Below are positions 22,548 through 36,425 of a DNA stretch of 64,000 bases, in pieces (position 1 is the first letter of the stretch; each line of letters begins with the position of its first letter). The stretch comes from Acuticoccus mangrovi (GTDB lineage: Bacteria > Pseudomonadota > Alphaproteobacteria > Rhizobiales > Amorphaceae): positions 1 through 64,000 of the forward strand of contig NZ_JAEKJA010000013.1 of assembly GCF_016411865.1 (NCBI RefSeq). Direction: 5' to 3'. The notes beneath the pieces are model-generated. The model worked only from the letters and a program-made list of their open reading frames with translations, made no database searches and was not told the DNA's origin. The position numbers and the translations under genes were made by a program.

Positions 22548-22696
22548 CGTGGCTCCAAGTTTACGTGTCATGCCCTGTGATGGGGATGAAACCGCGCCTT
22601 GACAATGTTTTCCGTCGCATCGGGTGCATTTGATATGCCGATGCCTCATTTGCGTGTCATTGAGGAAACGGCTTCGCGAATGTTCGGGAGTTGCGA

Positions 22697-24229
22697 ATGC
22701 CATGCCGTTTGAGAGGGGAGCGTCGTGTGGTCGCGGCACTCCTCGCCGGTCTGATGATCGCGCCGCCGCCTGTCGCCGCGGCGGGCGCCAGCGTGGCGAC
22801 GCTTGCGAGCACCGGCGGGTCGATCGCCGAAGTCACCGTGGCGACCACCGAGGATCCGGCAGAAGCCGTGCCGGAAGCGTCCGGCACTCCCCGGGACGGG
22901 ACCGAAGACGCCACAGACGCCGCGGGCGAAGCCACCGAGGATGCCGTCGGGGCGAGCGCCGAGGACGAGCCGGCCGAAGCCGAAAGGGAGAAGACGGAGG
23001 AGGACGCGGCGAAGGCGGCGGAGACGGCCGAGCTTTGCCGCCTCCTCGTCACGGCCGCCGATCGCTACCGCGTGCCGCACGACTTCTTCATTCGGCTGAT
23101 CTGGAAGGAGAGCCGCTTCAACGCCGGCGCGGTCAGCCCGATGGGGGCGGAGGGGATCGCCCAGTTCATGCCCGGCACCGCCCGCATCCGCGGCCTCGCC
23201 AATCCGTTCGACCGGAGGGAGGCCCTCTTCGCCTCCGCCCATTTCCTCGCCGACCTCAAGCAGCGCTTCGGCTCCTGGGGGCTCGCGGCGGCCGGCTACA
23301 ATGGCGGGCCGAACCGCGTGCCGCCCTTCGTCGCCGGCGACGGGGGGCTGCCCTACGAGACCATCGACTACGTCTTCTCGATCACTGGACGCTCGGCCCA
23401 CTATTGGGCGCTGCGGGCGCGCCGGGCCGCGACGCGGGCGGCGGAGGCGGCCGTGCTGGAGGCGCGCTGGGAGGCCGACGTGCTCGGCTCGATGGGATCG
23501 CTCGGCGGTGCCGCACCCGCCGCGATCCCGACGCCCCTGGAGCGGCCTGCAGCGACTTCGACGACGGCGGAGCGGCCTGCAGCGACTTCGACGACGGCGG
23601 AGCGGCCTGCCGCGACTTTGACCACGGCGGAGCGGCCTGCTGCGACCCCGCTGACGGCAAAGCGGCCTGCCGCGACCCCGGTAACGACGGAGCCGTCTGC
23701 CGCGCTGGAGGTGGAGGCGGTCGAAGGGTCCTCCGGCGCGGACGCGACCGCCGCGCCACCCGCCGCCGAGGACGACGGCTCTGCGACGGCCGAGCCCGTG
23801 GAGGTGGCAGCCGCCGCGGGCGACGTCATCTCCGACGCGGAGAGCGTCGCGACGGAGATGCCGACCCCGCAGCCGCGGCCCGACTACCAGGCCGAGATCG
23901 ATTGCCCGACGCTCATCGCTCGCCTCGGGCGGCAGCGTTCCGTCGCCCCGCCTGCGGATACGGCCGGCGGGTGGACGCCGTGGGGGGCGCAGGTCGCGGG
24001 CCACCCGAATCGGACCATCGCCATGCGCCAATATGCTCGGCTCAAGCCCCGTCTGCCGGGCGATCTCGTCGCCAAGGGGCCGCACGTGGTGCTCCGCCGC
24101 TTCGCGGCGCGCGGCCGGCGGCCGATTCACGCGGTGCAGTTCGGCGCGACCAACCGGGCCGAGGCACAGGCGCTCTGCAAGCGCATCTCGGCCGCGCTTG
24201 CGCCGTGCGTGGTCGTTCGCAACAGCTGA
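22697..24229 (+). CDS. Secreted lytic transglycosylase with C-terminal SPOR-like domain
   Basis: A 510-residue exported protein. After a signal peptide (about 1-28) comes an acidic, Glu/Ala-rich linker (35-105). The SLT domain is at about 110-235: the catalytic Glu is in IWKESRFNAGAVSPMGAEG (near residue 138), with GIAQFMPGTA and AAGYNGGPNRV behind it. A Pro/Ala/Thr region with five 10-residue repeats (ERPAATSTTA type) spans about 282-332. The last 75 residues (RTIAMRQYARLKPRLPGDLV, then FGATNRAEAQALCKRI) resemble a SPOR peptidoglycan-binding domain. It cleaves glycan strands, probably at sites chosen by the SPOR domain. The ATG at 22697 has GGGAG six bases before it. Confidence 0.88.
   Translation: MPCRLRGERRVVAALLAGLMIAPPPVAAAGASVATLASTGGSIAEVTVATTEDPAEAVPEASGTPRDGTEDATDAAGEATEDAVGASAEDEPAEAEREKTEEDAAKAAETAELCRLLVTAADRYRVPHDFFIRLIWKESRFNAGAVSPMGAEGIAQFMPGTARIRGLANPFDRREALFASAHFLADLKQRFGSWGLAAAGYNGGPNRVPPFVAGDGGLPYETIDYVFSITGRSAHYWALRARRAATRAAEAAVLEARWEADVLGSMGSLGGAAPAAIPTPLERPAATSTTAERPAATSTTAERPAATLTTAERPAATPLTAKRPAATPVTTEPSAALEVEAVEGSSGADATAAPPAAEDDGSATAEPVEVAAAAGDVISDAESVATEMPTPQPRPDYQAEIDCPTLIARLGRQRSVAPPADTAGGWTPWGAQVAGHPNRTIAMRQYARLKPRLPGDLVAKGPHVVLRRFAARGRRPIHAVQFGATNRAEAQALCKRISAALAPCVVVRNS
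23541..23690 (+). repeat. Five tandem 30-bp coding repeats
   Basis: Five head-to-tail 30-base units beginning AGCGGCCTGC. The first two are identical and the later ones drift (TTTG, CCCCG variants). Each encodes a ten-residue R-P-A-A-T-x-x-T-x-x unit of the transglycosylase linker. The identity of the first two points to recent slippage or unequal crossing-over, so the number may vary between strains. Confidence 0.9.
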
Positions 24230-25958: not shown

Positions 25959-26723
25959 TTAGCGCGGCGCCATGCGGATCGCGCCGTCGAGGCGGATCAC
26001 CTCGCCGTTGAGGAGCGGGTTCTGGACGATCGCCGCCACGAGATCGGCATATTCGGCGGGCTTGCCGAGGCGCTTGGGGAACGGCACCTGCTCCCCGAGC
26101 GAGTTCACCACCTTCTCGCCGAGACCGATCAGGAGCGGCGTCTCGAAGATCCCGGGCGCGATGGTCATCACGCGGATGCCGTATTGGGAGAGGTCGCGCG
26201 CCAGCGGCAGGGTGAGGGCGGCGATGCCGCCCTTCGAGGCGGCGTAGGCGGCCTGCCCGATCTGGCCGTCATAGGCGGCGACGGAGGCGGTGGAGACGAT
26301 CACGCCGCGCTCGCCGTCCTCGGTGACCGGATCAGTCGCCGACATGCCGAGCGCGGAGAGGGCCGAGGCGCGGAAGGAGCCGACGAGGTTCACGTCGATC
26401 ACCTTGGCGAACATGTCGAACGGATGGGCGGCGCCGCGCGACACCGTCTTCGCGACCGGCGCGATACCGGCGCAGTTGACGAGGATGCGCTCCTGTCCGT
26501 GCGCGGCGCGGGCGGCCTCGAAGCCGGCCTTCAGGCTGTCTTCGCTGGTCACGTCCACCTTGGCGTAGACGCCGCCGAGCTCTTCGGCGACGGCCGCGCC
26601 GGCATCGGACATGTCGAAGATCGCGACCTTGGCACCTTCGGCGGCGAGCCGTCGGGCCGTCGCCTCGCCGAGCCCCGAGGCGCCGCCGGTGACGACGGCG
26701 GCGGGCGCGGTGGAGAGTTTCAT
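25959..26723 (-). CDS. SDR family oxidoreductase (3-hydroxyacyl-CoA dehydrogenase type 2-like)
   Basis: A 254-residue classical short-chain dehydrogenase. The cofactor motif VVTGGASGLGEATA is at residues 9-22, an acidic residue (FDMSD) favours NAD, NCAGIAP is near 83, and the catalytic set is Ser in VSTASVAAYDG and Tyr/Lys in YAASKGG. Its overall pattern resembles type 2 3-hydroxyacyl-CoA dehydrogenases of fatty-acid oxidation. It lies 31 bases behind the MBL gene and could be the last gene of the ABC/cNMP/MBL operon or a separate unit. Confidence 0.9.
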   Translation of the reverse strand: MKLSTAPAAVVTGGASGLGEATARRLAAEGAKVAIFDMSDAGAAVAEELGGVYAKVDVTSEDSLKAGFEAARAAHGQERILVNCAGIAPVAKTVSRGAAHPFDMFAKVIDVNLVGSFRASALSALGMSATDPVTEDGERGVIVSTASVAAYDGQIGQAAYAASKGGIAALTLPLARDLSQYGIRVMTIAPGIFETPLLIGLGEKVVNSLGEQVPFPKRLGKPAEYADLVAAIVQNPLLNGEVIRLDGAIRMAPR

Positions 26724-26754: not shown

Positions 26755-27642
26755 TCAGCTCACCGTGGAGGCGAGCGCGTTCGAGGTCTCGAGCAGCCGT
26801 CCGCCGCGCAGGGTGAAGGTCTGGCCCTGATAGGCGACGGAGGTGGTCGGCATCCGCCGCCGCGCGTCCTCCAGAAGCCGGTCGAGCTCGTCGTCGGTCC
26901 GGTCGGGATCGTGGTGGAAGAGCACGGGTATCTTGACGCCGGCCCGGGCGGCGAGCGCCAGCGCCTCGCCGGGGGTCGAATGGCCCCAGCCGACGAAGCG
27001 GGGATATTCGCTGTCGAGATACATCGCGTCGTAGATCATCACGTCGGCGCCCTCGACGAGCTCGGCGATGGGATCGTCGATCGCCGGGTTGCCGTGCTCG
27101 TGGTCGGTGATGATGGCGATGGAGGAGCCGGCATGGTCGAAGCGGTAGCCGCAGGCGTTGCCGGGATGGTTGAGCCGCACGGTGCGCACGGTGACGCCGC
27201 AGTCGAGGGTGATGGTCTCGCCGGCCTTGTAGCTGCGGAAGAAGGTGTTGTTGAGCGCCGACGTCGCGACCGGGAAGATCGGCGGACTCATCATCCGCTC
27301 GATGATCTTCTCCAGCGTGCCGCCGGGCGGCACGTGGCCGGCCCACAGGTTCACCTTCACCGTCGGATCGTAGGCGAGGCAGAAGAAGGGCAGGCCGCAG
27401 AGATGGTCCATGTGGGTGTGGGTGAAGAGCACGTCCACCTGGCTGACGCCGCGGCGGGCGAGGGCGCCTCCAGCGGGCCGGATGCCGGAGCCGCAGTCGA
27501 TGAGGATGGTCTTCTCGCCCACCCGCAGCTCGAAGCAGGTCGTCTCGCCGCCGTAGCGCAGGGTGTCGCGGCCGGGCGCCGGGATCGATCCGCGGGCGCC
27601 CCAGATGGTGAGGGACAGCGTATCGGGTGTCTGCTCAACCAT
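26755..27642 (-). CDS. Metallo-beta-lactamase-fold hydrolase
   Basis: A 295-residue MBL-fold protein of the kind starting IWGARGSIPAPG and RYGGETTCFELR, with the metal motif HTHMDH at about residues 75-80 and later ligands in NHPGN, ITDHEHG and FHHDPDR. This subgroup includes phosphodiesterase-like enzymes acting on cyclic phosphates and RNase Z relatives; the true substrate is not known. It overlaps the cyclic-nucleotide-binding gene by eight bases. Together they suggest it could hydrolyse the signal that the neighbour binds, which is inference. There is no signal peptide. Confidence 0.9.
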   Translation of the reverse strand: MVEQTPDTLSLTIWGARGSIPAPGRDTLRYGGETTCFELRVGEKTILIDCGSGIRPAGGALARRGVSQVDVLFTHTHMDHLCGLPFFCLAYDPTVKVNLWAGHVPPGGTLEKIIERMMSPPIFPVATSALNNTFFRSYKAGETITLDCGVTVRTVRLNHPGNACGYRFDHAGSSIAIITDHEHGNPAIDDPIAELVEGADVMIYDAMYLDSEYPRFVGWGHSTPGEALALAARAGVKIPVLFHHDPDRTDDELDRLLEDARRRMPTTSVAYQGQTFTLRGGRLLETSNALASTVS

Positions 27643-28093
27643 CGGCGAGGGCGGCGCGGAGCCGTCCGAATTCGCGTGTGGTGCGCTCGAGGCGATGAGC
27701 GAGGGCGCGCATCACCTCCACCGCCATGTCCGGGAAATTGGTGAGGAGCTTGAAGAAGTGCTCCTTGGAGACGGCGAGCGCCACGAGGTCGGAGGTGGCG
27801 CGGACGGTGGCGGTGCGCGGCACGTCGATCAGAATGGCGATCTCACCGACGATATCGTTCTCTTTGACGGTGGCGACGAGCTGCTCGCCGTTGACGCTCT
27901 GGATCACCACGTCGGCGTTGCCCGCCAGGATGATGTAGGCGGTATCGCCGAAGTCGCCTTCTTCGACGAGATTCTCACCGGCATCGAACCGCACGCGCTC
28001 CGATAGGAAGGCGAGAAGCCTCAGCTTCTGGTCGTCCACATTGCGGAAGAGGGGGATCTTCCGCAGCGCGGCGGCGTCACTCTCCAGACTCAT
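27635..28093 (-). CDS. Stand-alone cyclic-nucleotide-binding domain protein
   Basis: A 152-residue Crp/Fnr-type sensor domain with no DNA-binding part. The beta-roll runs about 15-115: VRFDAGENLVEEGDFGDTAY, the phosphate-binding cassette around NDIVGEIAILIDVPRTATVR (Gly-Glu and Arg), then a C-helix (PDMAVEVMRALAHRLERT). In PKA- or CAP-type domains the cassette holds cAMP or cGMP. Lacking an output domain, it probably acts on a partner protein, most simply the ABC transporter whose gene it overlaps by four bases (ATGA) or the MBL enzyme it overlaps by eight. Confidence 0.9.
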   Translation of the reverse strand: MSLESDAAALRKIPLFRNVDDQKLRLLAFLSERVRFDAGENLVEEGDFGDTAYIILAGNADVVIQSVNGEQLVATVKENDIVGEIAILIDVPRTATVRATSDLVALAVSKEHFFKLLTNFPDMAVEVMRALAHRLERTTREFGRLRAALADG

Positions 28094-30729
28094 GACGCCT
28101 CCTTCTCGAGGGCTTCGACGGCCACGCCGTCGATCGCGATCTGTTGCACGCTATCCCATGGACCTTGAGCGACCAACCTGCCCTCGCGCATCACCGCCAC
28201 CTTGTCGAGCGTTTTGGCGATCTGCGGGTCAGCCGTGCCGACGATCAGCGTGTGCTCGGCGCAGGCGTCCATGATGCGCGTCATCAGCGCCTTGTCGCCG
28301 TCGGCCACCGCGTCGAGGATCAGGACGTCCGGCCGCTTGACGAGCGCGCGCACCAGGCCGATGCGGCGCCGCTGGCTCGCCGAGAGCCGTCCGCCGGCGA
28401 CACCCACCTCGAAGTTGAGCCCGGCGCGGGCGATCGGGTCGCGCAGTCCGAGTTCCTTCACCGTGTCGCGCAGCAGGTTGTCGATGCGCTCGGACGCGCC
28501 GCGACGGTCGACCCGCGGCTTACCGAACAGGATGTTCTCCTCCACCGAGAGGGGCGGGATGTAGCTCGCCTCGTCGAACAGCGCGTAGCGGTCGTTGCCC
28601 TTCAGCGCCTTGTGGACGTACTCGCGGGCGCCGACGATCTTGGCCTCCTGCTCGGCGTCGAGCGTCACGATGCGGTGGCGGCCGGGCACCAGGCGGAAGG
28701 CGAGGCCGACGAAGGCGTCCGCATCCTCCTGCGGCAGCGGCTTCTGCGGCTTGGCGTTGTAGCGGCGCAGGCGCTGCTCGAAGAGCGGGATCTCGTCCGC
28801 GGAGAGGAAGGAGTAGTCGCCGATCAGGCTGGCGTCGGCTCCGGTGTCGGAGAACAGCTCGATCATGGTGGCGGCGACCGAGGCGCCGATGTCGACGAGG
28901 AGGTCGTAGACCTTCGCGGTCTTCAGCGCGTCGCGCACCGTCGGGTCGAACGCCGCCTCCCACACCCGCGAGCCCGGGTCGCTCGGCACGGCGAAGAGGG
29001 TGTTCTCGCCGAGCGTCGCCGAGTTGTTGAGCTCGCCCGAGGTCCACAGCTCGACGAGTCCGGCCCAGCTCTTGTCCTCGGTGGCGCGGCGGACCACCTC
29101 GGCGCGGGCGGTCATGATCTTGTCGGCAAAGCTCTCGGTGAGCTGCTCCTCGAGATGGGCGGCGAGGCCGAGGCGATAGAGGTCGCCCTCGAGCCCCACG
29201 AGCTCGACGAGCTCGATCAGCCGGTCGTCGAGCTCGGACGGGTCGCTGACGCCGGCCCGCTCGTAGTCCTCCCACGGAGCGGAGATGTCGAGCAGCGAGT
29301 TGCCGGTCAGCGTCGCCTCGGCGTAGCGCAGCGAGCTGACGTCGCCCGTGCCGCCGTTCTCGCCGTCCCGGCGCGGCTCGGTTCTGAGGCTGTAGACGAT
29401 GTTGTCGCGGATGGTGTCGTTGAAGATGTAGGGCTCGCTGCCGACGAAGGAGACGTGGCGCGCCACCATCGCGTGGGAGAGCTCGTCGATGCGGTGGCCG
29501 TCGATGGTCACCCGGCCGGCGATCGGCGGGAGGAGGCCGGCGATTGCGAGCAGCAGCTCGCTGCGCCCCGACCCGTCGCGGCCATAGACGGCGAGACGGG
29601 CCTTCGGCTTCACCTCCATCGACACGTCGAGCACCTCCTGCCCGCTGCCGCCGCCGCTGACGGCGAGGGAGGAGAGGGCGATGGTGGGGGTCGTGAGGTT
29701 GATCGCATCCTCGCCGAGGCCGTCGAGGCGGTGCGTCGGCACGGCGTCGTCGACGTCGAAATTCTCCACCACCGTCTGGTACTTCACCGACACGTTGGCG
29801 AGGTTCTGGTACCAGTTCAGCAGCTCCTTCCAGGGCGAGGCGAGGTCCTTGTAGGCGGCAAGCACCGCCACCAGGGCACCGAACGACATCGAGCCGTTGA
29901 TCACCAGCACACCGCCCACCGAATAGAAGAAGAAGGGCGGGAGCTGGTTGAGAAAGTTATTGAGGAATTTAATCATGTACTTGCGACGGAAGATCGCAAG
30001 CCGGATCCGGTAGTTGAGGAACAGGCGGTCCGACAGGTCCGCGAGGTGGTAGCGGGCCGTGTCGTTGGCCTTGATGTCGGTGGCGGCGCTGACGGTCTCG
30101 GCGATGCGGTCGGAGATCACCCGGATGTTCTTGATCCGGTCGCGCGTCAGCATGATGACGCGGCGCTGCAGCTTGGGGATCACGTAGGCCTGCAGCGGAT
30201 AGAGCGACACCGCCGCCGCGCCGAGGAACGGGTCCTGGGCGAAGATGAAGACGATGTAGACGAGCAGCGTGCCGCCCTGGAAGGCGGGCGTGGCGATCGC
30301 CTCGCCGATGAACACGCCGACGTCCTCCACCTCGGCGGTGATCATCGGGATGATCTCGCCGCCCGACACCTTGCGGAAGCGGGTGAGGGGAAAGCGGAGA
30401 ATGTAGTTGTACAGGATGTAGCGCAGGCGGCGAAGCATCCGCTCGCCCGAGACGCCCTTGTAGATGTTCAGGACATATTTAACGCCGTTGTTCAGAACGA
30501 CGAGGCCGAGGAAGATGCCGCAGAGCACGATCAGATAGGGGATCTGCGTCAGCTCGAAACCCATGATCGACTTCGGAAAATCTTTGCCCGAAATGGCATC
30601 GTTGACGATCCACTTCGGCAGTTCTAGCGTCATATAGAGAATCGGGAACGACACCACGGTCATCCCGAGGATGATGATTTGCTGGCGCTTCGAGTACCGC
30701 CAAATAAAGCCGAACAGGGTGCTTTCCAT
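28090..30729 (-). CDS. ABC exporter with split, degenerate nucleotide-binding domain
   Basis: An 879-residue half-transporter-like protein. The membrane domain (about 15-320) has six hydrophobic segments of the type 1 exporter fold. The nucleotide-binding domain starts near 350 but is split: GRDGSGRSE (near 385) stands for Walker A with Arg replacing the key Lys, then VGSEPYIFNDTIRDNIVYS (near 435), then roughly 290 extra residues, then LSVEENILFG (near 726), the signature LSASQRRR (near 781), Walker B VLILDAVAD (near 805, no catalytic Glu) and GTADPQ where the switch His should be. ATP hydrolysis is therefore doubtful or non-standard. It is the first gene of the operon with the cyclic-nucleotide-binding and MBL proteins, and diverges from the glycosyltransferase cluster. 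Confidence 0.85.
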   Translation of the reverse strand: MESTLFGFIWRYSKRQQIIILGMTVVSFPILYMTLELPKWIVNDAISGKDFPKSIMGFELTQIPYLIVLCGIFLGLVVLNNGVKYVLNIYKGVSGERMLRRLRYILYNYILRFPLTRFRKVSGGEIIPMITAEVEDVGVFIGEAIATPAFQGGTLLVYIVFIFAQDPFLGAAAVSLYPLQAYVIPKLQRRVIMLTRDRIKNIRVISDRIAETVSAATDIKANDTARYHLADLSDRLFLNYRIRLAIFRRKYMIKFLNNFLNQLPPFFFYSVGGVLVINGSMSFGALVAVLAAYKDLASPWKELLNWYQNLANVSVKYQTVVENFDVDDAVPTHRLDGLGEDAINLTTPTIALSSLAVSGGGSGQEVLDVSMEVKPKARLAVYGRDGSGRSELLLAIAGLLPPIAGRVTIDGHRIDELSHAMVARHVSFVGSEPYIFNDTIRDNIVYSLRTEPRRDGENGGTGDVSSLRYAEATLTGNSLLDISAPWEDYERAGVSDPSELDDRLIELVELVGLEGDLYRLGLAAHLEEQLTESFADKIMTARAEVVRRATEDKSWAGLVELWTSGELNNSATLGENTLFAVPSDPGSRVWEAAFDPTVRDALKTAKVYDLLVDIGASVAATMIELFSDTGADASLIGDYSFLSADEIPLFEQRLRRYNAKPQKPLPQEDADAFVGLAFRLVPGRHRIVTLDAEQEAKIVGAREYVHKALKGNDRYALFDEASYIPPLSVEENILFGKPRVDRRGASERIDNLLRDTVKELGLRDPIARAGLNFEVGVAGGRLSASQRRRIGLVRALVKRPDVLILDAVADGDKALMTRIMDACAEHTLIVGTADPQIAKTLDKVAVMREGRLVAQGPWDSVQQIAIDGVAVEALEKEAS

Positions 30730-30819
30730 CGTGGCCGGACGTTAGCATCAGCCAACGGCCGGGGGAACGTTTATCTCCGGTTGTTGCGCCCTTGCGCTGC
30801 GTGTCGCATAGCTGTTGAG

Positions 30820-30834
30820 TTAGCGCGGCGCTAA
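30820..30834. promoter_or_regulatory. Palindromic candidate operator between the ABC and glycosyltransferase operons
   Basis: TTAGCGC-G-GCGCTAA is a perfect 7-bp inverted repeat around one base. It lies 35 bases before the glycosyltransferase start and 91 before the ABC start, well placed to control both directions. The regulator is unknown. Confidence 0.4.
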
Positions 30835-30868
30835 TTTCGGTGCGCGCAGGCTTCCGGATGGCTGAACT

Positions 30869-32083
30869 ATGCCGACCGAACATCCGCGGATCCTGATCTA
30901 CTCGCACGATTCGTTCGGGCTGGGTCACTTGCGCCGCTGCCGCGCCATCGCTCATTCGATGGTGGCGGCCATGCCACGCCTGTCGGTGATCATCCTGTCG
31001 GGATCGCCGATCATCGGCAGCTTCGACTTTCGTCCGCGGGTCGACTTCGTGCGCGTCCCCGGCGTGATCAAGCTGCGCGACGGGGCCTACTCGCCCCATT
31101 CGCTGCGGCTCGACATCGAGCACATGCTGAAGTTGCGCGCCTCGATCATCGAGCACACGGCCGACGTGTTCGACCCCGACATCTTCCTCGTCGACAAGGA
31201 GCCGCTCGGCCTGCGTGGCGAGGTGGAGGACACGCTCAACATGCTGAAGCGGCGCGGCACGCGTCTCGTCCTCGGGCTGCGCGACGTGATGGACGACCCC
31301 GCGAGCCTCGCCGACGAGTGGGACCGCAAGCACGCCGTGCGCGCGCTCGAGGAGATCTACGACGACATCTGGGTCTACGGAAAGCAGGCCGTGCACGACC
31401 CGCTCGAAGGCATCGCCGTGTCGGAGAAGGTGCGCGACAAGATGCTGTTCACCGGCTACCTCCGCCGCGAGATCCCCGATAGCGACGACCACGCCGAGGA
31501 GAACCCCTTCGGCGACGAGCCCTTCATCCTCGTGACCCCGGGCGGCGGCGGCGACGGGATGGAGCTCGTCGACTGGGTGCTGAAGGCCTACGAGGCGCAC
31601 GAGCGGCCGCTGTTCCCCGCGCTCATCGTGCTCGGTCCCTTCATGCCGCCGGACGCGCAGGCGCGCTTCAAGGCGCGGGCCGAGGCGCTGCGCCACGTGC
31701 ATCTCATCCGCTTCACCCCGGTGATCGAGCGCCTGATGGCCCAGGCGACGGCGATCGTCGGCATGGGCGGCTACAATATCTTCTGTGAGATCCTGTCCTT
31801 CGACAAACCGACCCTGCTCGTGCCGCGCATCGTGCCGCGGCGCGAGCAGGCGATCCGGGCGGCGAAGGCCGAGGCGGCGGGACTCCTCACGTCGCTTCCC
31901 ATCGATTCCTACCCGGATGTCGAGATGATGATCGAGGCACTTGCCAACCTGCCGGACCAGCGGCGCCCGTCCGCCGCGGGGTTCACCGAGCTCCTGTCGG
32001 GGCTCGACACCATCAACCACCGGGCGGCGGAGATCCTGCAGGCGCCGCGCCGGGCGGCCCCGGCCCTGACGCTCGTGCGCTGA
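30869..32083 (+). CDS. MurG-like (GT-B fold) glycosyltransferase
   Basis: A 404-residue GT-B protein resembling the MurG / UDP-GlcNAc-dependent group annotated as predicted glycosyltransferase. The N-terminal domain opens ILIYSHDSFGLGHLRRCRAI (Gly-His acceptor loop). The C-terminal domain has ILVTPGGGGDGMELVDWVL near residue 220 and the nucleotide-sugar loop GMGGYNIFCEILSFDKPTLL near 295. There is no membrane segment. It is first of four overlapping glycosyltransferase genes and shares one base with the next (TGATG). Donor and acceptor are unknown. Confidence 0.85.
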   Translation: MPTEHPRILIYSHDSFGLGHLRRCRAIAHSMVAAMPRLSVIILSGSPIIGSFDFRPRVDFVRVPGVIKLRDGAYSPHSLRLDIEHMLKLRASIIEHTADVFDPDIFLVDKEPLGLRGEVEDTLNMLKRRGTRLVLGLRDVMDDPASLADEWDRKHAVRALEEIYDDIWVYGKQAVHDPLEGIAVSEKVRDKMLFTGYLRREIPDSDDHAEENPFGDEPFILVTPGGGGDGMELVDWVLKAYEAHERPLFPALIVLGPFMPPDAQARFKARAEALRHVHLIRFTPVIERLMAQATAIVGMGGYNIFCEILSFDKPTLLVPRIVPRREQAIRAAKAEAAGLLTSLPIDSYPDVEMMIEALANLPDQRRPSAAGFTELLSGLDTINHRAAEILQAPRRAAPALTLVR

Positions 32084-33312
32084 TGGCGAAGGGTCGCATC
32101 GCCGTCGTCGTGAAGGGCTATCCGCGCCTGTCGGAGACCTTCATCGCGCAGGAGATTCTGGGGCTCGAGCGGCTCGGTCTCGATCTCCTCATCGTGTCGC
32201 TCCGCAAGCCCTACGACGGCGCCGTCCACGCGCTCCATCGGGAGATCTCGGCACCCGTCCTCTACCTGCCCGAGTATCTGAAGGACGATCCGGCGCGGGT
32301 GCGGGCGGGGCGCAACGTGGCGGCGAGGCTGCCGGGCTACGCCGAGGCGGAGGCGATCTATGCCGCCGACCTCGCGCGCGACCCCTCGGCGAGCCGCCGT
32401 CGTCGCTGGGGCCAGGCCGCCGTGCTCGCGGCCGAGCTGCCTGGCGACATCGCGATGATCTACGTGCACTTCCTGCACACGCCCGCGTCGGTCGCCCGCT
32501 ATGCCGCCACCATGCGGGGCCTGCCGTTCGCCTTCTCCGCCCACGCCAAGGACATCTACACGACGCCCGACTGGGAGATCGCCGAGAAGATCGCCGCGGC
32601 CGAGTGGGGCGTCACCTGCACCGCCGCCAACGTCGCGCGGCTCAGGGCTCTCGCCGACCGGCCCGACAAGGTGACGCTCGGCTATCACGGGCTCGATCTC
32701 TCGCGCTTTCCCGCTCCGCCCGAGCGGACGGGGGCGGGGCCGGTGCGCTTCCTGTCGGTCTGCCGGGCGGTGGAGAAGAAGGGGCTCGACGACCTCTTGC
32801 GCGCGCTCGCCAAGCTGCCGGCGGACCTCGACTGGCGGTTCGAGCACGTCGGTGGCGGCGGGCTCGTCGCGCGGCTCGAAAAGCTCGCCGAGCGGCTCGG
32901 CATCGCCGACCGCGTGACCTTCTCCGGCGCGATGGCGCAGGACGGGGTGATCGAGGCCTATCGCCGGGCCGACGTCTTCGTGCTGGCGAGCCGGGTGGCG
33001 AAGAACGGCGACCGCGACGGGCTGCCCAACGTGATCATGGAGGCGATGGCGCTCGGGCTGCCGGTGGTCTCCACCCGCGTGTCGGCGGTGCCGGAGATCG
33101 TGACGGAGGAGACCGGCATCCTGGTCGAGCAGCGCGATCCGGCCGCGCTCGCGGACGCGATGGCCCGCGTGGGCGGCGATCCGGCCTTGCGCGCCCGCCT
33201 CGCCGAGGCGGGGATCAGCCGCGTCAAGACGCGCTTCTCGCCCATGCCGACGCTCGAGCTCCTGGCGAGCCGCCTCTCGGGAGACGACGAGCCCGCTCAC
33301 CGCGCTGCATGA
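32083..33312 (+). CDS. Glycosyltransferase family 4 protein
   Basis: A 409-residue GT-B enzyme of the GT4 family. It starts KGRIAVVVKGYPRLSETFI, typical of colanic-acid/exopolysaccharide-type transferases. The donor site motif is DGLPNVIMEAMALGLPVVST (EX7E-type, about 305-325). FSAHAKDIY near 145 and VCRAVEKKGLDDLLRAL near 225 are usual for the family. It overlaps both neighbours, so the four transferases are made together. Confidence 0.9.
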   Translation: MAKGRIAVVVKGYPRLSETFIAQEILGLERLGLDLLIVSLRKPYDGAVHALHREISAPVLYLPEYLKDDPARVRAGRNVAARLPGYAEAEAIYAADLARDPSASRRRRWGQAAVLAAELPGDIAMIYVHFLHTPASVARYAATMRGLPFAFSAHAKDIYTTPDWEIAEKIAAAEWGVTCTAANVARLRALADRPDKVTLGYHGLDLSRFPAPPERTGAGPVRFLSVCRAVEKKGLDDLLRALAKLPADLDWRFEHVGGGGLVARLEKLAERLGIADRVTFSGAMAQDGVIEAYRRADVFVLASRVAKNGDRDGLPNVIMEAMALGLPVVSTRVSAVPEIVTEETGILVEQRDPAALADAMARVGGDPALRARLAEAGISRVKTRFSPMPTLELLASRLSGDDEPAHRAA

Positions 33313-34388
33313 GGGTTGCCGTCCTCGCGCCGATGAAGCCGCCGGATCATCCGGTGCCCTCCGGCGACCGCACCTTCGTCCGGCTGATCCTCGCGGCGCT
33401 GGCGCGGGGCGGGCACGAAGCGGCGCTCGTCTCCCGCCTCGTCACGTGGAGGCGCACGCCGGAGGGGCTCGACGCCCTGCTTGCCGAGGCGGAGCGGGAA
33501 GCCGCGCGCCTCGCCGCCCTCTGGCGGACTGAGGGGGCGCCCGACGCGATCCTCACCTATCACAACTACCACAAGGCGCCCGATCTCCTCGGGCCGCGGC
33601 TCGCGGCGGCGTTCGATCTGCCTTACGCGATCATCGAGGCGAGCCGGGCGCCGCGCCACGCCGACGGCCCCTGGGCGCGCCACTTCGCCCTCGCCGACGC
33701 CGCGCTCGACCGGGCCGACCGCGTCGCCGCCGTGACGGCCTACGACATGCCGGGGCTCGCCGCCCATCTGCCGCAGCGGCTCGTCCACCTGCCGCCCTTC
33801 ATCGACACCGCGCCCTTCGCCGGCCCGCGCGAAGAGGGTGGCGCACCGCTCGTATCCGCCGCGATGATGCGGGAGGGGCGCAAGGCGGAGAGCCTTGCCG
33901 TCCTCGCCGACGCCTTCGCCCTCGTCCGGCAGGCGGTGCCCGCGACGCGCCTCGTCGTCGCCGGCGACGGGCCGGCGCGCTCCCGGCTGGAGCCGCTTTT
34001 TCCGCCCGGCGTCTTCCGCGGCGCGCTGGAGCAGGCGGCGCTCGGCCGACTCCTGCGCAGCGCCGAGATCTTCATGTGGCCGGCGATCGACGAGCCCTTC
34101 GGTTTCCTCTTTCTGGAGGCGCAGGCGGCCGGTCTCGCGGTGGTGGGCGGGGCGACCCGCGGCACCGTGGACGTGGTGGTGGACGGGGAGACCGGGATCC
34201 TCGTGCCGCCGCACGACGCCGGCGCCATCGCCGACGCCACGCTGGCGCTCCTGGCCGATACGCCGCGCCGCCGCGCGATGGGCGAGGCCGCCGCCCGCTT
34301 TGCCGCCCGCCACGACCTCGCGGCCGGCGCCGCCCGCGTCACGGCGCTTCTGAACGCCGCCGCCGCGCACCGGGGATGCCGGCGGTGA
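33309..34388 (+). CDS. Glycosyltransferase family 4 protein
   Basis: A 359-residue GT-B transferase. It starts MRVAVLAPMKPPDHPVPSGD, and the donor site is EPFGFLFLEAQAAGLAVVGG near 260 (EX7E). AILTYHNYHKAPDLLGPRL is in the acceptor domain. The ATG at 33309 overlaps the preceding stop (ATGA). Being smaller and Ala/Arg-rich, it looks like a divergent family member. Confidence 0.88.
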   Translation: MRVAVLAPMKPPDHPVPSGDRTFVRLILAALARGGHEAALVSRLVTWRRTPEGLDALLAEAEREAARLAALWRTEGAPDAILTYHNYHKAPDLLGPRLAAAFDLPYAIIEASRAPRHADGPWARHFALADAALDRADRVAAVTAYDMPGLAAHLPQRLVHLPPFIDTAPFAGPREEGGAPLVSAAMMREGRKAESLAVLADAFALVRQAVPATRLVVAGDGPARSRLEPLFPPGVFRGALEQAALGRLLRSAEIFMWPAIDEPFGFLFLEAQAAGLAVVGGATRGTVDVVVDGETGILVPPHDAGAIADATLALLADTPRRRAMGEAAARFAARHDLAAGAARVTALLNAAAAHRGCRR

Positions 34389-35503
34389 CGCGCGTTCTGA
34401 TCTGGGTGCAGCACCTCCTGGGCACCGGCCACACCGTGCGGGCGGCGGCGATCGGCCATGCTCTCGCCGCGCGCGGTACCGCGGTGACGCTGGTTCTCGG
34501 CGCCCGCCCGCCGGCGACCCTCGGTCTTGCCGGGCTCGACGTGGTGCAGCTTCCCCCGGTGCTCGCCACCGACGGCAGCTTCACCACCATCCTCGGCGAG
34601 GATGGCCGCCCCTACGCCGACTGGCAGCCGGCTCGCCGCGCCGCCTTCGACGAGGTGGTGCGCTCGGTGCGGCCCGATGCGGTGCTCACCGAGACCTTCC
34701 CCCTCGGCCGCCGCGCCTTCGCCGGCGAGATCGTGCCGGCGCTCGCCTCCCTCAAGGGCCGCGTGCCGATCGCGGCCTCGGTGCGCGACGTGCTGGTGCG
34801 AAAGAGCGCCGCCAAGGAAGCGGCGATGGCGGCGCTGGTGTCGGACTGGTTCGATATGGTGCTCGTCCACGCCGACCCGGCCTTCGTGCGGCTCGAGGAG
34901 AGTTTTGGGGCGACGGCCGCCTTTGCCGAGCGCATTCGCTACACGGGGTTCGTCCACGCTCCGGCGCCACCCGTCTCGGCGGGGGACGGGGAGGGGGAGA
35001 TCCTCGTCTCGTCCGGCGGGGGCGGCGTCGGCGCGGCGCTGGTGGAGGCGGCGATCGGCGCGGCGCGGCTGACGCCGGGGCGGGACTGGCGCATCCTCAC
35101 CTCGCCGCAGCTCGGCGACCGGCTCTCGGCGTGGCGCCGGGCGGCGCCGGCGGGCGTCACCCTCGAGCCCAACCGCCCCGACTTCCGCAGCCTCCTCGCC
35201 CGTGCCGAGCTCTCGGTGAGCCAGGCGGGCTACAACACCGTCCTCGACGTATTGATTGCCGGGGTGCGGGCCGTGCTCGTTCCCTTCGCGGCGCACGAGG
35301 AGACCGAGCAGTCCGACCGGGCCGCCGCGCTCGCCCGGCGCGGCCTCGCCGAGGTGATCGACGAGGATGCGCTCACCACCGAACGCCTCGCGAGCGCCGT
35401 CGCCGCCTCGTTCGCCGCGCCACCGCCGCCGCGTCCGGCGATCGACGTCGACGGAGCCGCCCGCACCGCCGAGATCCTGTTGGCGGCGGCGAAGGGCGGC
35501 TGA
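34376..35503 (+). CDS. MurG-like glycosyltransferase
   Basis: A 375-residue GT-B protein related to the first gene of the cluster. It opens with RVLIWVQHLLGTGHTVRAAA (Gly-His loop) and has ILVSSGGGGVGAALVEAAIG and the donor loop VSQAGYNTVLDVLIAGVRAV. The ATG at 34376 is listed; the GTG at 34385 overlaps the preceding stop as GTGA, has GGGG nine bases before it, and is an equally good start. It ends the four-gene transferase run. The paired MurG-like enzymes flanking two GT4 enzymes suggest stepwise assembly of a defined oligosaccharide. Confidence 0.85.
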   Translation: MPAVTRVLIWVQHLLGTGHTVRAAAIGHALAARGTAVTLVLGARPPATLGLAGLDVVQLPPVLATDGSFTTILGEDGRPYADWQPARRAAFDEVVRSVRPDAVLTETFPLGRRAFAGEIVPALASLKGRVPIAASVRDVLVRKSAAKEAAMAALVSDWFDMVLVHADPAFVRLEESFGATAAFAERIRYTGFVHAPAPPVSAGDGEGEILVSSGGGGVGAALVEAAIGAARLTPGRDWRILTSPQLGDRLSAWRRAAPAGVTLEPNRPDFRSLLARAELSVSQAGYNTVLDVLIAGVRAVLVPFAAHEETEQSDRAAALARRGLAEVIDEDALTTERLASAVAASFAAPPPPRPAIDVDGAARTAEILLAAAKGG

Positions 35504-35687: not shown

Positions 35688-36425
35688 ATGGAGGATGGTG
35701 GGCTGATGGAGGGTCTCGCCCCGCTCGTCGCCGCGCTCGATGCGGCGGCCGCCGCCGGCCGTCCGCGCGCCTTCTGGTGGCGCGACGACGACGCCGTGCG
35801 CGTCGGCCCGCGGCTGTGCGCCTTGCGGGAGGTGGCGGCGCGGCACGGCGCGCCGCTCTCGCTCGCGGTGATCCCCGCCGGGGTGGAGGCGGGCCTTCTC
35901 GACTGGTGCGGCGAGGAGGGGGTGGACGTGCTGCAGCACGGCGTCGCCCACGCAAACCACGAGCGGCACGGCAAGTCCGCCGAGCTCGGCGCCGCCCGCC
36001 CGGTGGCGACGATCGTCGCCGAGTGCGTCGCCGCCCGCGAGCGCCTCGCCCGATCGGCGGCGTTCCTGCCGGTGATGGTGCCGCCGTGGAACCGCATGCG
36101 CGAGGACCTCGCGCCCGCTCTCGCCGAGGCCGGCTATCGGGGCCTCTCCCGCTTTGGCGGCCCGCCCGTCGCCGGCGTGCTGCTGCGGGTCGACACCCAC
36201 GTCGACCCCATCGCCTGGCGCACCACGCGCGATCTCCACGCGCCCGAAATCCGCGCCGCCATCCTGGCGGAGGCGATGGCCGGGGAGGGCCCCGTCGGCC
36301 TCCTCACCCACCACGCCGTCCACACCGCGGCGGTCGACGCCTTCGTCGCCGCCTTCGTGCGCCTCGTCAGCGCGCACGAGGGCGCCGTCTGGCGCTCCGC
36401 CCGCGATCTCTTCGGAGCGAGCTGA
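35688..36425 (+). CDS. Polysaccharide-deacetylase-like protein
   Basis: A 245-residue protein with features of the NodB-like carbohydrate esterase fold. [10 protein letters not shown] near residue 30 supplies the Asp pair, [18 protein letters not shown] near 85 the metal-binding His residues, PPWNRM near 130 the conserved segment before a second acid, and GLLTHHAVH near 205 the last His. There is no signal peptide, so it would work in the cytoplasm, which is unusual for deacetylases of exported polymers but fits modification of a lipid-linked intermediate. Starts at 35688 (GGAG five bases before) and 35706 are both possible. It overlaps ruvX by one base. Confidence 0.75.

Follow-up and report, generated by a model that had tools for sequence, protein, structure and literature searches.

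Three overlapping genes of Acuticoccus mangrovi code for an ABC exporter-like protein, a free-standing cyclic-nucleotide-binding domain protein (CNB) and an MBL-fold metallohydrolase (MBL). They are found in a stretch of 64,000 nucleotides (contig NZ_JAEKJA010000013.1, positions 1 to 64,000), which is named here the window. The question raised by this locus is whether the three proteins act together, the transporter being controlled by a cyclic nucleotide that the neighbouring enzyme could remove, as put forward in a preliminary description made from the sequence.

Gene organization and distribution of the module

Table 1. Features of the A. mangrovi window in the region of the ABC, CNB and MBL genes.
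Feature	Coordinates	Strand	Size	Remarks
SDR-family oxidoreductase	25959-26723	-		31 bases past the MBL gene
MBL, MBL-fold metallohydrolase	26755-27642	-	295 aa	HxHxDH and other candidate metal ligands conserved
CNB, free-standing cyclic-nucleotide-binding domain protein	27635-28093	-	152 aa	phosphate cassette GE...PRTA
ABC exporter-like protein	28090-30729	-	879 aa	
Intergenic region separating the ABC gene from the divergent glycosyltransferase cluster	30730-30868		139 bases	
GT1, glycosyltransferase-like	30869-32083	+		syntenic neighbour on the divergent side; MJ1255 and Glyco_tran_28_C match weakly, under cut-off
GT2, glycosyltransferase group 1	32083-33312	+		syntenic neighbour; best hit in NCBIfam is EpsE, under cut-off
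GT3, glycosyltransferase-like, divergent cluster	33309-34388	+		the block holds homologues in other genomes too
GT4, fourth glycosyltransferase-like gene	34376-35503	+		placed in cluster c4 from its position and by visual inspection; the Glyco_tran_28_C match behind it is that of the c4 representative
Polysaccharide-deacetylase-like protein	35688-36425	+		no Pfam match; named after its homologue next to the ABC block of pWSM1497, which carries this annotation

The overlaps between the ABC stop and the CNB start (28090-28093, 4 bases) and between the CNB stop and the MBL start (27635-27642, 8 bases) agree with those given in the preliminary description. Since ABC, CNB and MBL belong to conserved families encoded in a conserved order, their arrangement goes beyond chance. 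The SDR gene is possibly the last one of their transcription unit; close relatives of its product also come after MBL or a cyclase in several genomes. The preliminary description mentions neither this gene nor the divergent glycosyltransferase cluster, nor the repeat inside the ATPase domain described below. A scan for sigma-70-type promoters, beyond whose reach other promoter types lie, gave no match in the divergent intergenic region.

The ABC family is present in 57 of the 189 other genomes of the class sample and in 261 plasmid records, and orthologues of the module are carried by Sinorhizobium meliloti pSymB. Family members are usually annotated as 'ABC transporter ATP-binding protein'. 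Loci were compared in class, order and named sets; because these share genomes and ancestry, their counts do not amount to independent evidence. ORF calling was mechanical; the odd placements seen in 11/179 loci are in part true relocations and in part artefacts of ORF choice, and some of the neighbourhood analyses kept the ABC ORF for only 149 of the 178 loci. No publication on the ABC-CNB module was found among the open-access papers searched, subscription papers being mostly outside the search. The module is widespread in bacteria and, as far as could be found, apparently undescribed.

The ABC protein has an exporter fold and degenerate ATPase motifs

The A. mangrovi ABC protein features ABC_membrane (3.6e-15) and ABC_tran (1.2e-18); no other Pfam domain, and in particular no peptidase domain, was detected at E <= 0.01. 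The TMD spans approximately residues 1-324 and the NBD residues ~345-862. The latter carries an insert of ~270 residues (~451-714) with a tandem repeat, whose R1 unit covers residues ~540-616 and whose R2 unit (~700-772) runs into the signature region. The combination of the two domains with an exporter fold is that of type IV ABC exporters, to which the protein compares with Z scores of 26-28 across ~420-440 residues.

The preliminary description rightly named this exporter degenerate. In Walker A (GRDGSGRS) the Lys is replaced by Arg and the Ser is retained, in Walker B (LILDAV) the Asp is retained and the catalytic Glu is replaced by Ala, and the protein has no SGGQ, no H-loop His and no Gln in the Q-loop stretch. 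The site of a competent ATPase, defined by Walker A GxxGxGK[S/T], Walker B DE, LSGGQ and the H-loop His, is not found in it. Among 169 distinct proteins of the family, Walker A K and S/T occur in five, Walker B D and E in 14 and the two together in none, while SGGQ is found in two, the H-loop His in 39 and a Gln in the Q-loop stretch in 38. Judged by its sequence, the ABC protein seems to be an exporter-fold membrane protein without ATPase machinery. Note that motif loss in the family is no proof of lost ATP binding.

The membrane part is the most conserved region of the family, with a mean pairwise identity of 0.60 for the TMD versus 0.40-0.43 for the NBD parts (64 ABC proteins). Relatives composed of a TMD only exist: 14 have no match to the family's NBD in the surrounding DNA that was retrieved; L302, at a contig edge, was excluded from this set. 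The branch uniting the full-length family has a support of 0.74 in a tree of every third of 169 full-length proteins.

The CNB gene is linked to the ABC gene

As stated earlier for this sensor, CNB has no DNA-binding part: the sole Pfam domain in its 152 residues is cNMP_binding (9.4e-20; PF00027, 70.8 bits versus a gathering score of 27.5). The sensor pocket is intact by sequence, residues G83-E84, P92-R93 and A95 of the phosphate cassette being invariant in 24/24 CNBs. A role of CNB as a transcription factor was rejected, as Pfam detected no DNA-binding domain in it. The label 'Crp/Fnr family transcriptional regulator' of the S. meliloti CNB was likewise discarded, this protein of only 154 residues being judged too short for such a regulator.

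CNB adjoins or is fused to the ABC protein in 166 of 177 loci (class 55/58, order 40/40 and named 71/79, sets that overlap). A single fused ABC-CNB ORF, with CNB at its carboxyl terminus, is found in 14/179 loci, and in Ruegeria the annotation gives one of these fusions as a single CDS. The predicted model of a natural fusion has a linker with pLDDT ~41-43. Because of the fusions in these 14 loci, the transporter is likely to be the output of the sensor. The preliminary description had named the transporter or the hydrolase as the probable output, and the link of CNB to the ABC protein is borne out by adjacency and fusion.

The MBL hydrolase occurs in two genomic arrangements

MBL matches Lactamase_B_2 (1.1e-23) and its metal ligands are intact by sequence, H80 and H244 being invariant and H75, H77, D79, H159, D180 and H221 present in at least 90% of 24 members. 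It scores 56.6 bits with the cyclic-nucleotide phosphodiesterase model NF041851, whose curated cut-off of 400 is not reached; 23 of the 24 members match this model at E <= 0.001, the best being A. mangrovi MBL. The score with RNase Z models is higher, at 80.6 bits, and also below their cut-off (252). PDB matches of the family profile include 6kns (2.4e-8) and Apyc1 (4.3e-4), the best matches being RNase Z structures. The earlier statement that this group has phosphodiesterase-like members agrees with the family's resemblance by profile to, among others, cyclic-nucleotide phosphodiesterases. The GPMC system of NCBIfam was rejected, as it amounts to just weak matches of the MBL and GT genes.

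In close relatives (ABC identity of at least 45%; overlapping samples) MBL lies within 2.5 kb downstream in 41 of 42 cases, and the trio is found in 22/22 such loci of the order sample and 19/20 of the named one, L174 being the exception. Over all loci, MBL is just downstream in 43/178, with a cyclase next on the same strand in 20 of these 43; the frequencies of direct downstream location are 0/54 (class), 24/38 (order) and 19/71 (named). The conservation of the trio, on which the preliminary description made its case depend, stands for the branch of A. mangrovi but is clade-restricted. In 17 of the 51 class genomes that encode both ABC and MBL, the latter is found 13.4-19.5 kb upstream of the ABC gene on the same strand, separated from it by a glycosyltransferase/oligopeptide-importer block. 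The linkage is thus kept in two arrangements, downstream in one clade and distant upstream elsewhere. A cyclase is near the distant MBL in 7/17 genomes; none is found in 11 of 18 regions around distant MBL.

Class III cyclases and glycan genes

A class III cyclase is encoded by 56 of the 57 ABC-bearing genomes versus 64/132 others, and the median number per genome of at least 3.3 Mb is 12 in 48 ABC genomes versus two in 26 others, counts per genome being capped near 16. Loci of the order and named samples often have cyclases close to the module, at 36.5 and 20.2 cyclase-domain ORFs per Mb, respectively. The genome-wide density in ABC genomes, at least 2.5 per Mb, comes from a different profile with the same cap and is a rough yardstick only; the enrichment is itself rough, the neighbourhood counts having used a profile built from linked cyclases. 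In the class sample a cyclase is found in 7/58 neighbourhoods (6.9 per Mb), which is not clearly above background, and enrichment there is not convincing. The Lys of DKFLGDG, a specificity feature of adenylate cyclases, is kept in 33 of 40 linked cyclases and is Gln in seven, while the Arg of VNxAxR is replaced by Lys in 32/40.

Glycosyltransferase genes divergent from the ABC gene are present in 34/54 class, 19-21/37 order and 50-60/70 named loci. A separate survey of homologues in the block did not score GT4, whose reference there was out of frame (6 stops). The ABC-CNB module sits inside the larger glycosyltransferase/oligopeptide-importer block and the closest A. mangrovi cyclase is on another contig, so the unit is not self-contained as had been supposed; the clade restriction of the trio speaks to the same effect. 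Neighbourhood cluster c22 was discarded as an artefact, since it is OppATP read on the opposite strand. A glycan role of the module is assigned by guilt by association. The S. meliloti orthologue of the ABC protein may be SMb20813, a guess from the gene numbering. One report calls SMb20813 an msbA homologue (PMC10945364), and another describes an effect of smb20804/20805 on capsular polysaccharide (PMC5539429), which is a nearby lead only.

Proposed mechanism and alternative explanations

The reading that we prefer, tentatively and at somewhat short of an even chance, is that of an ATPase-dead ABC protein under cyclic-nucleotide control via CNB, with MBL as phosphodiesterase, serving an envelope or extracellular glycan. 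Class III cyclases would make the cyclic nucleotide, most likely cAMP. CNB would bind it and relay its binding state to the ABC protein by a putative contact, probably through the modified NBD, and MBL would hydrolyse the nucleotide to reset the switch. The module would serve production or export of the presumed glycan substrate from the adjacent glycosyltransferases. The findings suggest control of the ABC protein by a second messenger rather than by ATP hydrolysis. Several observations count against this reading: the higher score of MBL with RNase Z models, the binding of ppGpp and not cAMP by the corresponding domain of HetC (see below), the scarcity of cyclases in class-sample neighbourhoods and around the distant MBL, and the replaced Lys and Arg residues of linked cyclases. 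The earlier idea of a cyclic-nucleotide transporter/enzyme module is largely right and partly supported. A bolder form of this proposal, to which we give a low probability, is an ATP-independent bacterial ABC protein whose NBDs were turned into a regulatory domain with a duplicated segment, the TMD being opened or closed by the cAMP-bound partner; some members of the family would have synthesis (cyclase), sensing (CNB) and destruction (MBL) of the signal encoded side by side.

Heterodimeric ABC exporters in which one site is degenerate are a familiar class, and the ABC protein could be the degenerate half of one whose competent subunit is encoded elsewhere, CNB tuning an ATP-driven glycan or lipid exporter. 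TM287/288 and TmrAB are among its nearest folds, its NBD still superposes on that of ComA (Z 28.1, rmsd 2.0, 231 residues aligned) and the A. mangrovi genome encodes several further exporter-like ABC proteins. As far as is known, degenerate subunits of heterodimers keep ATP binding, whereas Walker A and Walker B are both degenerate here; four exporter queries from the same genome aligned over more than 400 residues with a single ORF in 178 neighbourhoods, and the 14 TMD-only relatives also argue against this explanation, which is rather improbable. The NBD without intact ATPase motifs yet with a conserved extra segment, the TMD-only relatives and the adjoining glycosyltransferases would equally suit a non-transporting, SUR-like scaffold or receptor controlled by a cyclic nucleotide that recruits or regulates glycosyltransferases or another membrane machine. 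We regard this as unlikely, the better conservation of the TMD fitting a pore or substrate path equally well.

MBL might stand outside the circuit, as an RNA or small-molecule hydrolase located beside the pair in Hyphomicrobiales, with ABC-CNB alone as the functional unit. Its absence directly downstream in the class sample and its top NCBIfam matches to RNase Z models, below cut-off, favour this explanation, which we find doubtful but worth serious thought. Against it, MBL is encoded in 51/57 ABC genomes versus 33/132 others (genome size not controlled), and the same-strand upstream MBL genes, several with a cyclase close by, point to a kept linkage. A Pycsar-type anti-phage defence, in which a cyclase is paired with a cyclic-nucleotide-binding membrane effector, is suggested by PADLOC matches of CNB to PycTIR sensor models (4.8e-20) and of the cyclases to PycC models (1.3e-22, 1.1e-24). 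Such matches may mean no more than that domains are shared. The module moreover has a wide distribution in synteny with glycan genes, most linked cyclases keep the Lys as adenylate cyclases do, and the cyclase is frequently not adjacent to the module; this candidate was set aside as very improbable.

Relation to known systems and significance

The ABC protein shares its overall fold with the type IV exporters MsbA, Sav1866, TM287/288 and ComA and differs from them by the loss of the Walker motifs, the NBD insert with its tandem repeat and the link to CNB. CFTR and SUR are ABC proteins that act as channel or receptor, and both bind ATP; their likeness to the module is a functional analogy only, that of an ABC job other than ATP-driven transport. 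TIGR03896 (cyc_nuc_ocin, bacteriocin-type transport-associated protein) is a two-domain protein of bacteriocin clusters linked to an ABC exporter. Like CNB, it is a separate cyclic-nucleotide-binding protein, and CNB matches it at 9.7e-15 (54.7 bits) without reaching the cut-off of 161.05; the neighbours of CNB-ABC, in contrast, are glycan genes. The nearest studied case is HetC of Nostoc PCC 7120, described as a peptidase-containing ABC exporter whose N-terminal cyclic-nucleotide-binding domain is needed in vivo and bound ppGpp, not cAMP, peptidase and ATPase residues being required as well (PMC10986499). Both systems tie a cNMP-binding fold to an ABC exporter, but the ABC protein of the module has no peptidase domain in Pfam and has lost its ATPase motifs, and CNB is a separate gene or, if fused, C-terminal. 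Mycobacterial Rv1339 is reportedly an MBL cyclic-nucleotide phosphodiesterase. The same activity is ascribed to Apyc1 and YhfI (PMC9117128). MBL resembles these proteins and NF041851 by weak profile matches and conserved metal ligands; it falls far under the family cut-off and is nearer to RNase Z models.

If the gated ABC protein proposed above is real, bacteria would have in it a functional counterpart of CFTR and SUR, an ABC channel or flippase gated by a cyclic nucleotide, and its TMD-only relatives, which lack the NBD, would form a wider lineage around it. The usual annotation is probably wrong on ATP hydrolysis for a widespread proteobacterial family. Cyclase-rich genomes gain a concrete candidate membrane target for cyclic nucleotides beside glycan genes, and the orthologues on S. 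meliloti pSymB make the module testable in a genetic model.

Organization of the gene set

The genes coding the degenerate ABC exporter-like protein (ABC), the small cyclic-nucleotide-binding protein (CNB) and the MBL-fold metallohydrolase (MBL) overlap in the window by 4 bases (ABC/CNB) and 8 bases (CNB/MBL), as in the preliminary description, and a glycosyltransferase cluster begins on the opposite strand 139 bases upstream of ABC. The domain search of CNB agrees with the earlier statement that the sensor has no DNA-binding part. Relatives of the following SDR gene (68-78% identical) come after MBL or a cyclase in several genomes, so this gene may be part of the MBL-containing unit.

Features of the window (empty cells: no entry)
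Feature	Position	Strand	Description
ABC	28090-30729	minus	879 aa; ABC_membrane and ABC_tran matches
CNB	27635-28093	minus	152 aa; cNMP_binding is the sole domain match
MBL	26755-27642	minus	295 aa; Lactamase_B_2 match
SDR gene	25959-26723	minus	31 bases beyond MBL
ORF	22691-24229		lytic-transglycosylase-like, judged by eye
30-base repeat within this ORF	23539-23704		~5.5 copies; translates to ERPAATSTTA-type decapeptides

The ABC protein family

The ABC family is found in 57 genomes besides its own in the class-wide sample of 190 genomes (two of them, G178 and G139, have ABC in pieces) and in 57 of the 150 order-sample genomes, its own counted (E <= 1e-100). At least 570 stretches fit the family pattern with tblastn E <= 1e-3, the looser criterion of the genome_contigs scan; the 80 retained come from records labelled mostly Alphaproteobacteria and some Gammaproteobacteria. 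The source genome probably belongs to the Hyphomicrobiales (Alphaproteobacteria). Named near relatives of the ABC gene include, among the matches listed, those of Pseudoxanthobacter, Breoghania, Stappia and Roseibium. The class, order and named locus sets overlap.

ATPase motifs were counted in 169 pooled non-identical proteins, window protein included. At the Walker A position, 69 proteins have Lys and 80 have Arg; the residue that follows is Ser/Thr in 38 and acidic (Asp or Glu) in 101. In Walker B, 53 proteins have Asp and 78 have Glu; the H-loop His occurs in 39, a Gln within the Q-loop stretch in 38 and SGGQ in two. The Walker A Lys plus Ser/Thr pair is present in 5 proteins, the Walker B Asp plus Glu pair in 14 and both pairs in none. 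Many members thus retain single ATPase-motif residues but none of the 169 has the full set, which bears out the earlier term "degenerate". Mean pairwise identity (64 proteins) is 0.60 in the membrane part, 0.40 in the amino-terminal half of the ATPase domain (NBD), 0.41 in its insert and 0.43 in the carboxyl-terminal half.

This insert of ~270 residues, placed after the Q-loop and before the signature region, is family-wide (mean gap 1% in 59 full-length proteins). Its segment R1 (540-640) aligns with segment R2 (690-790), which runs into the signature region. The consensus alignment scores 109 against 27.8 +/- 4.7 for shuffles (z 17), the likeness exceeds z 3 in 152 of the 169 individual proteins, and both segments contain a motif of the type YN-x-x-A-x-x-x-(E/Q-D)N-(L/I)LFG. 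The AlphaFold model of ABC is an exporter half (pLDDT 87, pTM 0.83); VIA-align superposes the ComA NBD (231 of its 239 residues) onto residues 343-876 of ABC (rmsd 2.0, Z 28.1) and matches PDB entry 3qf4_A over 436 residues (Z 28.5). From the superpositions and the R1-R2 alignment, the NBD fold looks complete in the model and the insert is an addition arising partly by duplication.

Fourteen loci (L085, L087, L290-L301) code for proteins of 313-413 aa that resemble the membrane domain alone (TMD-only), with no best-hit match to the family NBD or CNB within the fetched 10-19 kb; an importer-type ABC ATPase lies elsewhere in 4 of these regions. When placed in a tree alongside 57 full-length proteins, 13 of the 14 TMD-only proteins branch outside the full-length family (support of the family branch 0.74) and L085 inside. 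These relatives suggest that a membrane domain of this type can persist without its own ATPase.

The sensor and its association with ABC

Within 700 bases downstream of ABC, fusions counted, a same-strand CNB match is present in 55 of 58 class and 40 of 40 order loci, and in 71 of the 79 named loci with room, among the matches listed. Over 179 loci, ABC and CNB form one ORF in 14 (in Ruegeria sp. B32 the fusion is annotated as a single CDS), are adjacent genes in 146, are oddly placed in 11 (partly ORF-choice artefacts, partly relocations in Gammaproteobacteria-labelled records) and CNB has no match in 8, one of them a TMD-only gene. Fusion and near-universal adjacency argue for a CNB-ABC partnership and are the best evidence that the sensor output is probably the ABC protein, one of the two outputs that had been proposed. 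Residues G83, E84, P92, R93 and A95 of the phosphate cassette are invariant (24/24); judged from sequence, the pockets are intact. According to PMC10986499, the comparable cyclic-nucleotide-type domain of HetC, a CNB-bearing ABC exporter of Nostoc PCC 7120, bound ppGpp and not cAMP; a cyclic nucleotide is therefore only a putative ligand of CNB.

Placement and kinship of MBL

Of the 38 order loci, 24 have MBL following on the same strand at no more than 2.5 kb, as do 19 of the 71 named loci among the matches listed; none of the 54 class loci does. Where ABC identity is >=45%, this arrangement is seen in 22 of 22 order loci and, among the matches listed, in 19 of 20 named loci (exception L174). 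Conservation of the trio, for which a survey had been suggested, thus holds at this identity and not across the class. Of the 57 ABC genomes, 51 contain MBL, versus 33 of 132 others, genome size being a confounder; in 17 of the 51, MBL is a same-strand gene located 13.4-19.5 kb upstream of ABC. The distant-MBL regions (L270-L286) group a response regulator, MBL and a PF13578 methyltransferase, facing an oligopeptide importer, a deacetylase-like gene and glycosyltransferases; not all of these genes are seen in each region. A cyclase is found in 7 of 17 (7 of 18 counting the G066 region).

MBL-family members match RNase Z models and, more weakly, cyclic-nucleotide phosphodiesterase models; for the window protein, all scores seen with both were below cut-off. 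Against structures, the family profile matches RNase Z best (3.1e-16), then 1zkp and 6kns (2.4e-8), and weakly the phosphodiesterase Apyc1 (4.3e-4). The matches to 6kns, which we take to be YhfI, and to Apyc1 agree with the earlier assignment to a group with phosphodiesterase-like members. YhfI prefers cAMP/cGMP according to PMC9117128.

Linked cyclases and glycosyltransferases

MBL is just downstream in 43 of 178 loci, 20 of which additionally carry a same-strand cyclase, belonging to one cluster, no more than 6.5 kb away; the Pseudovibrio order is ABC-CNB-MBL-cyclase-SDR (L168-L170, L175). On Mesorhizobium pWSM1497 an ABC-CNB-MBL-deacetylase-glycosyltransferase block lies amid several annotated cyclase genes. 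On S. meliloti pSymB, an importer and glycosyltransferases precede ABC and CNB, and farther upstream lie genes for a cyclase and a nucleotide sugar dehydrogenase; strain 2011 has an MBL homologue (43%) ~16 kb upstream on the opposite strand. Two further observations concern these replicons: seven ORFs match the cyclase-domain profile in the 39 kb around the pWSM1497 trio (L303, 281405-320113), an unusual density, and a gene annotated as polysaccharide lyase (L307:3100-4068) adjoins the cyclase in one version of the pSymB block.

Cyclase-domain ORFs near the module amount to 36.5 per Mb (order), 6.9 (class) and 20.2 (named, among the matches listed), with none in the 14 TMD-only control regions; the genome-wide average in ABC genomes is at least 2.5 per Mb, with a profile that differs from the neighbourhood one. 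Only the order and named sets show a clear enrichment. All of the 40 linked or closest cyclases retain both metal Asp; in DKFLGDG, 33 have the Lys that adenylate cyclases typically carry and 7 have Gln. The Asn is kept in 39, and Lys replaces the usual following Arg in 32. The closest cyclase in the own genome (46%) is on another contig, adjoining a glutathione-S-transferase-like gene; given this and the class loci without MBL downstream, the term "self-contained module" is not supported.

Glycosyltransferases are linked to ABC in 34 of 54 class loci, 19-21 of 37 order loci and, among the matches listed, 50-60 of 70 named loci. This linkage suggests that the substrate may be a glycan, either of the envelope or extracellular.

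Possible function

ABC exporters linked to CNB domains are already known in kind (HetC, TIGR03896). No account of this ABC-CNB family was found in searches of an open-access library, with respect to which the combination is new: an ABC family that lacks intact ATPase motifs and in which part of the NBD is duplicated, a sensor that is either free or fused carboxyl-terminally, and linkage to genes for phosphodiesterase-like enzymes and cyclases.

ABC might be the degenerate half of a heterodimeric exporter, but four queries found only 1 exporter-like ORF in 178 neighbourhoods, though a partner may be encoded at a distance from them. It might also be a scaffold that transports nothing, and MBL might be unrelated to ABC-CNB. 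Most likely, the ABC protein would no longer be driven by ATP, ligand binding to CNB would alter its state by contact between the two proteins, and MBL would clear the ligand.
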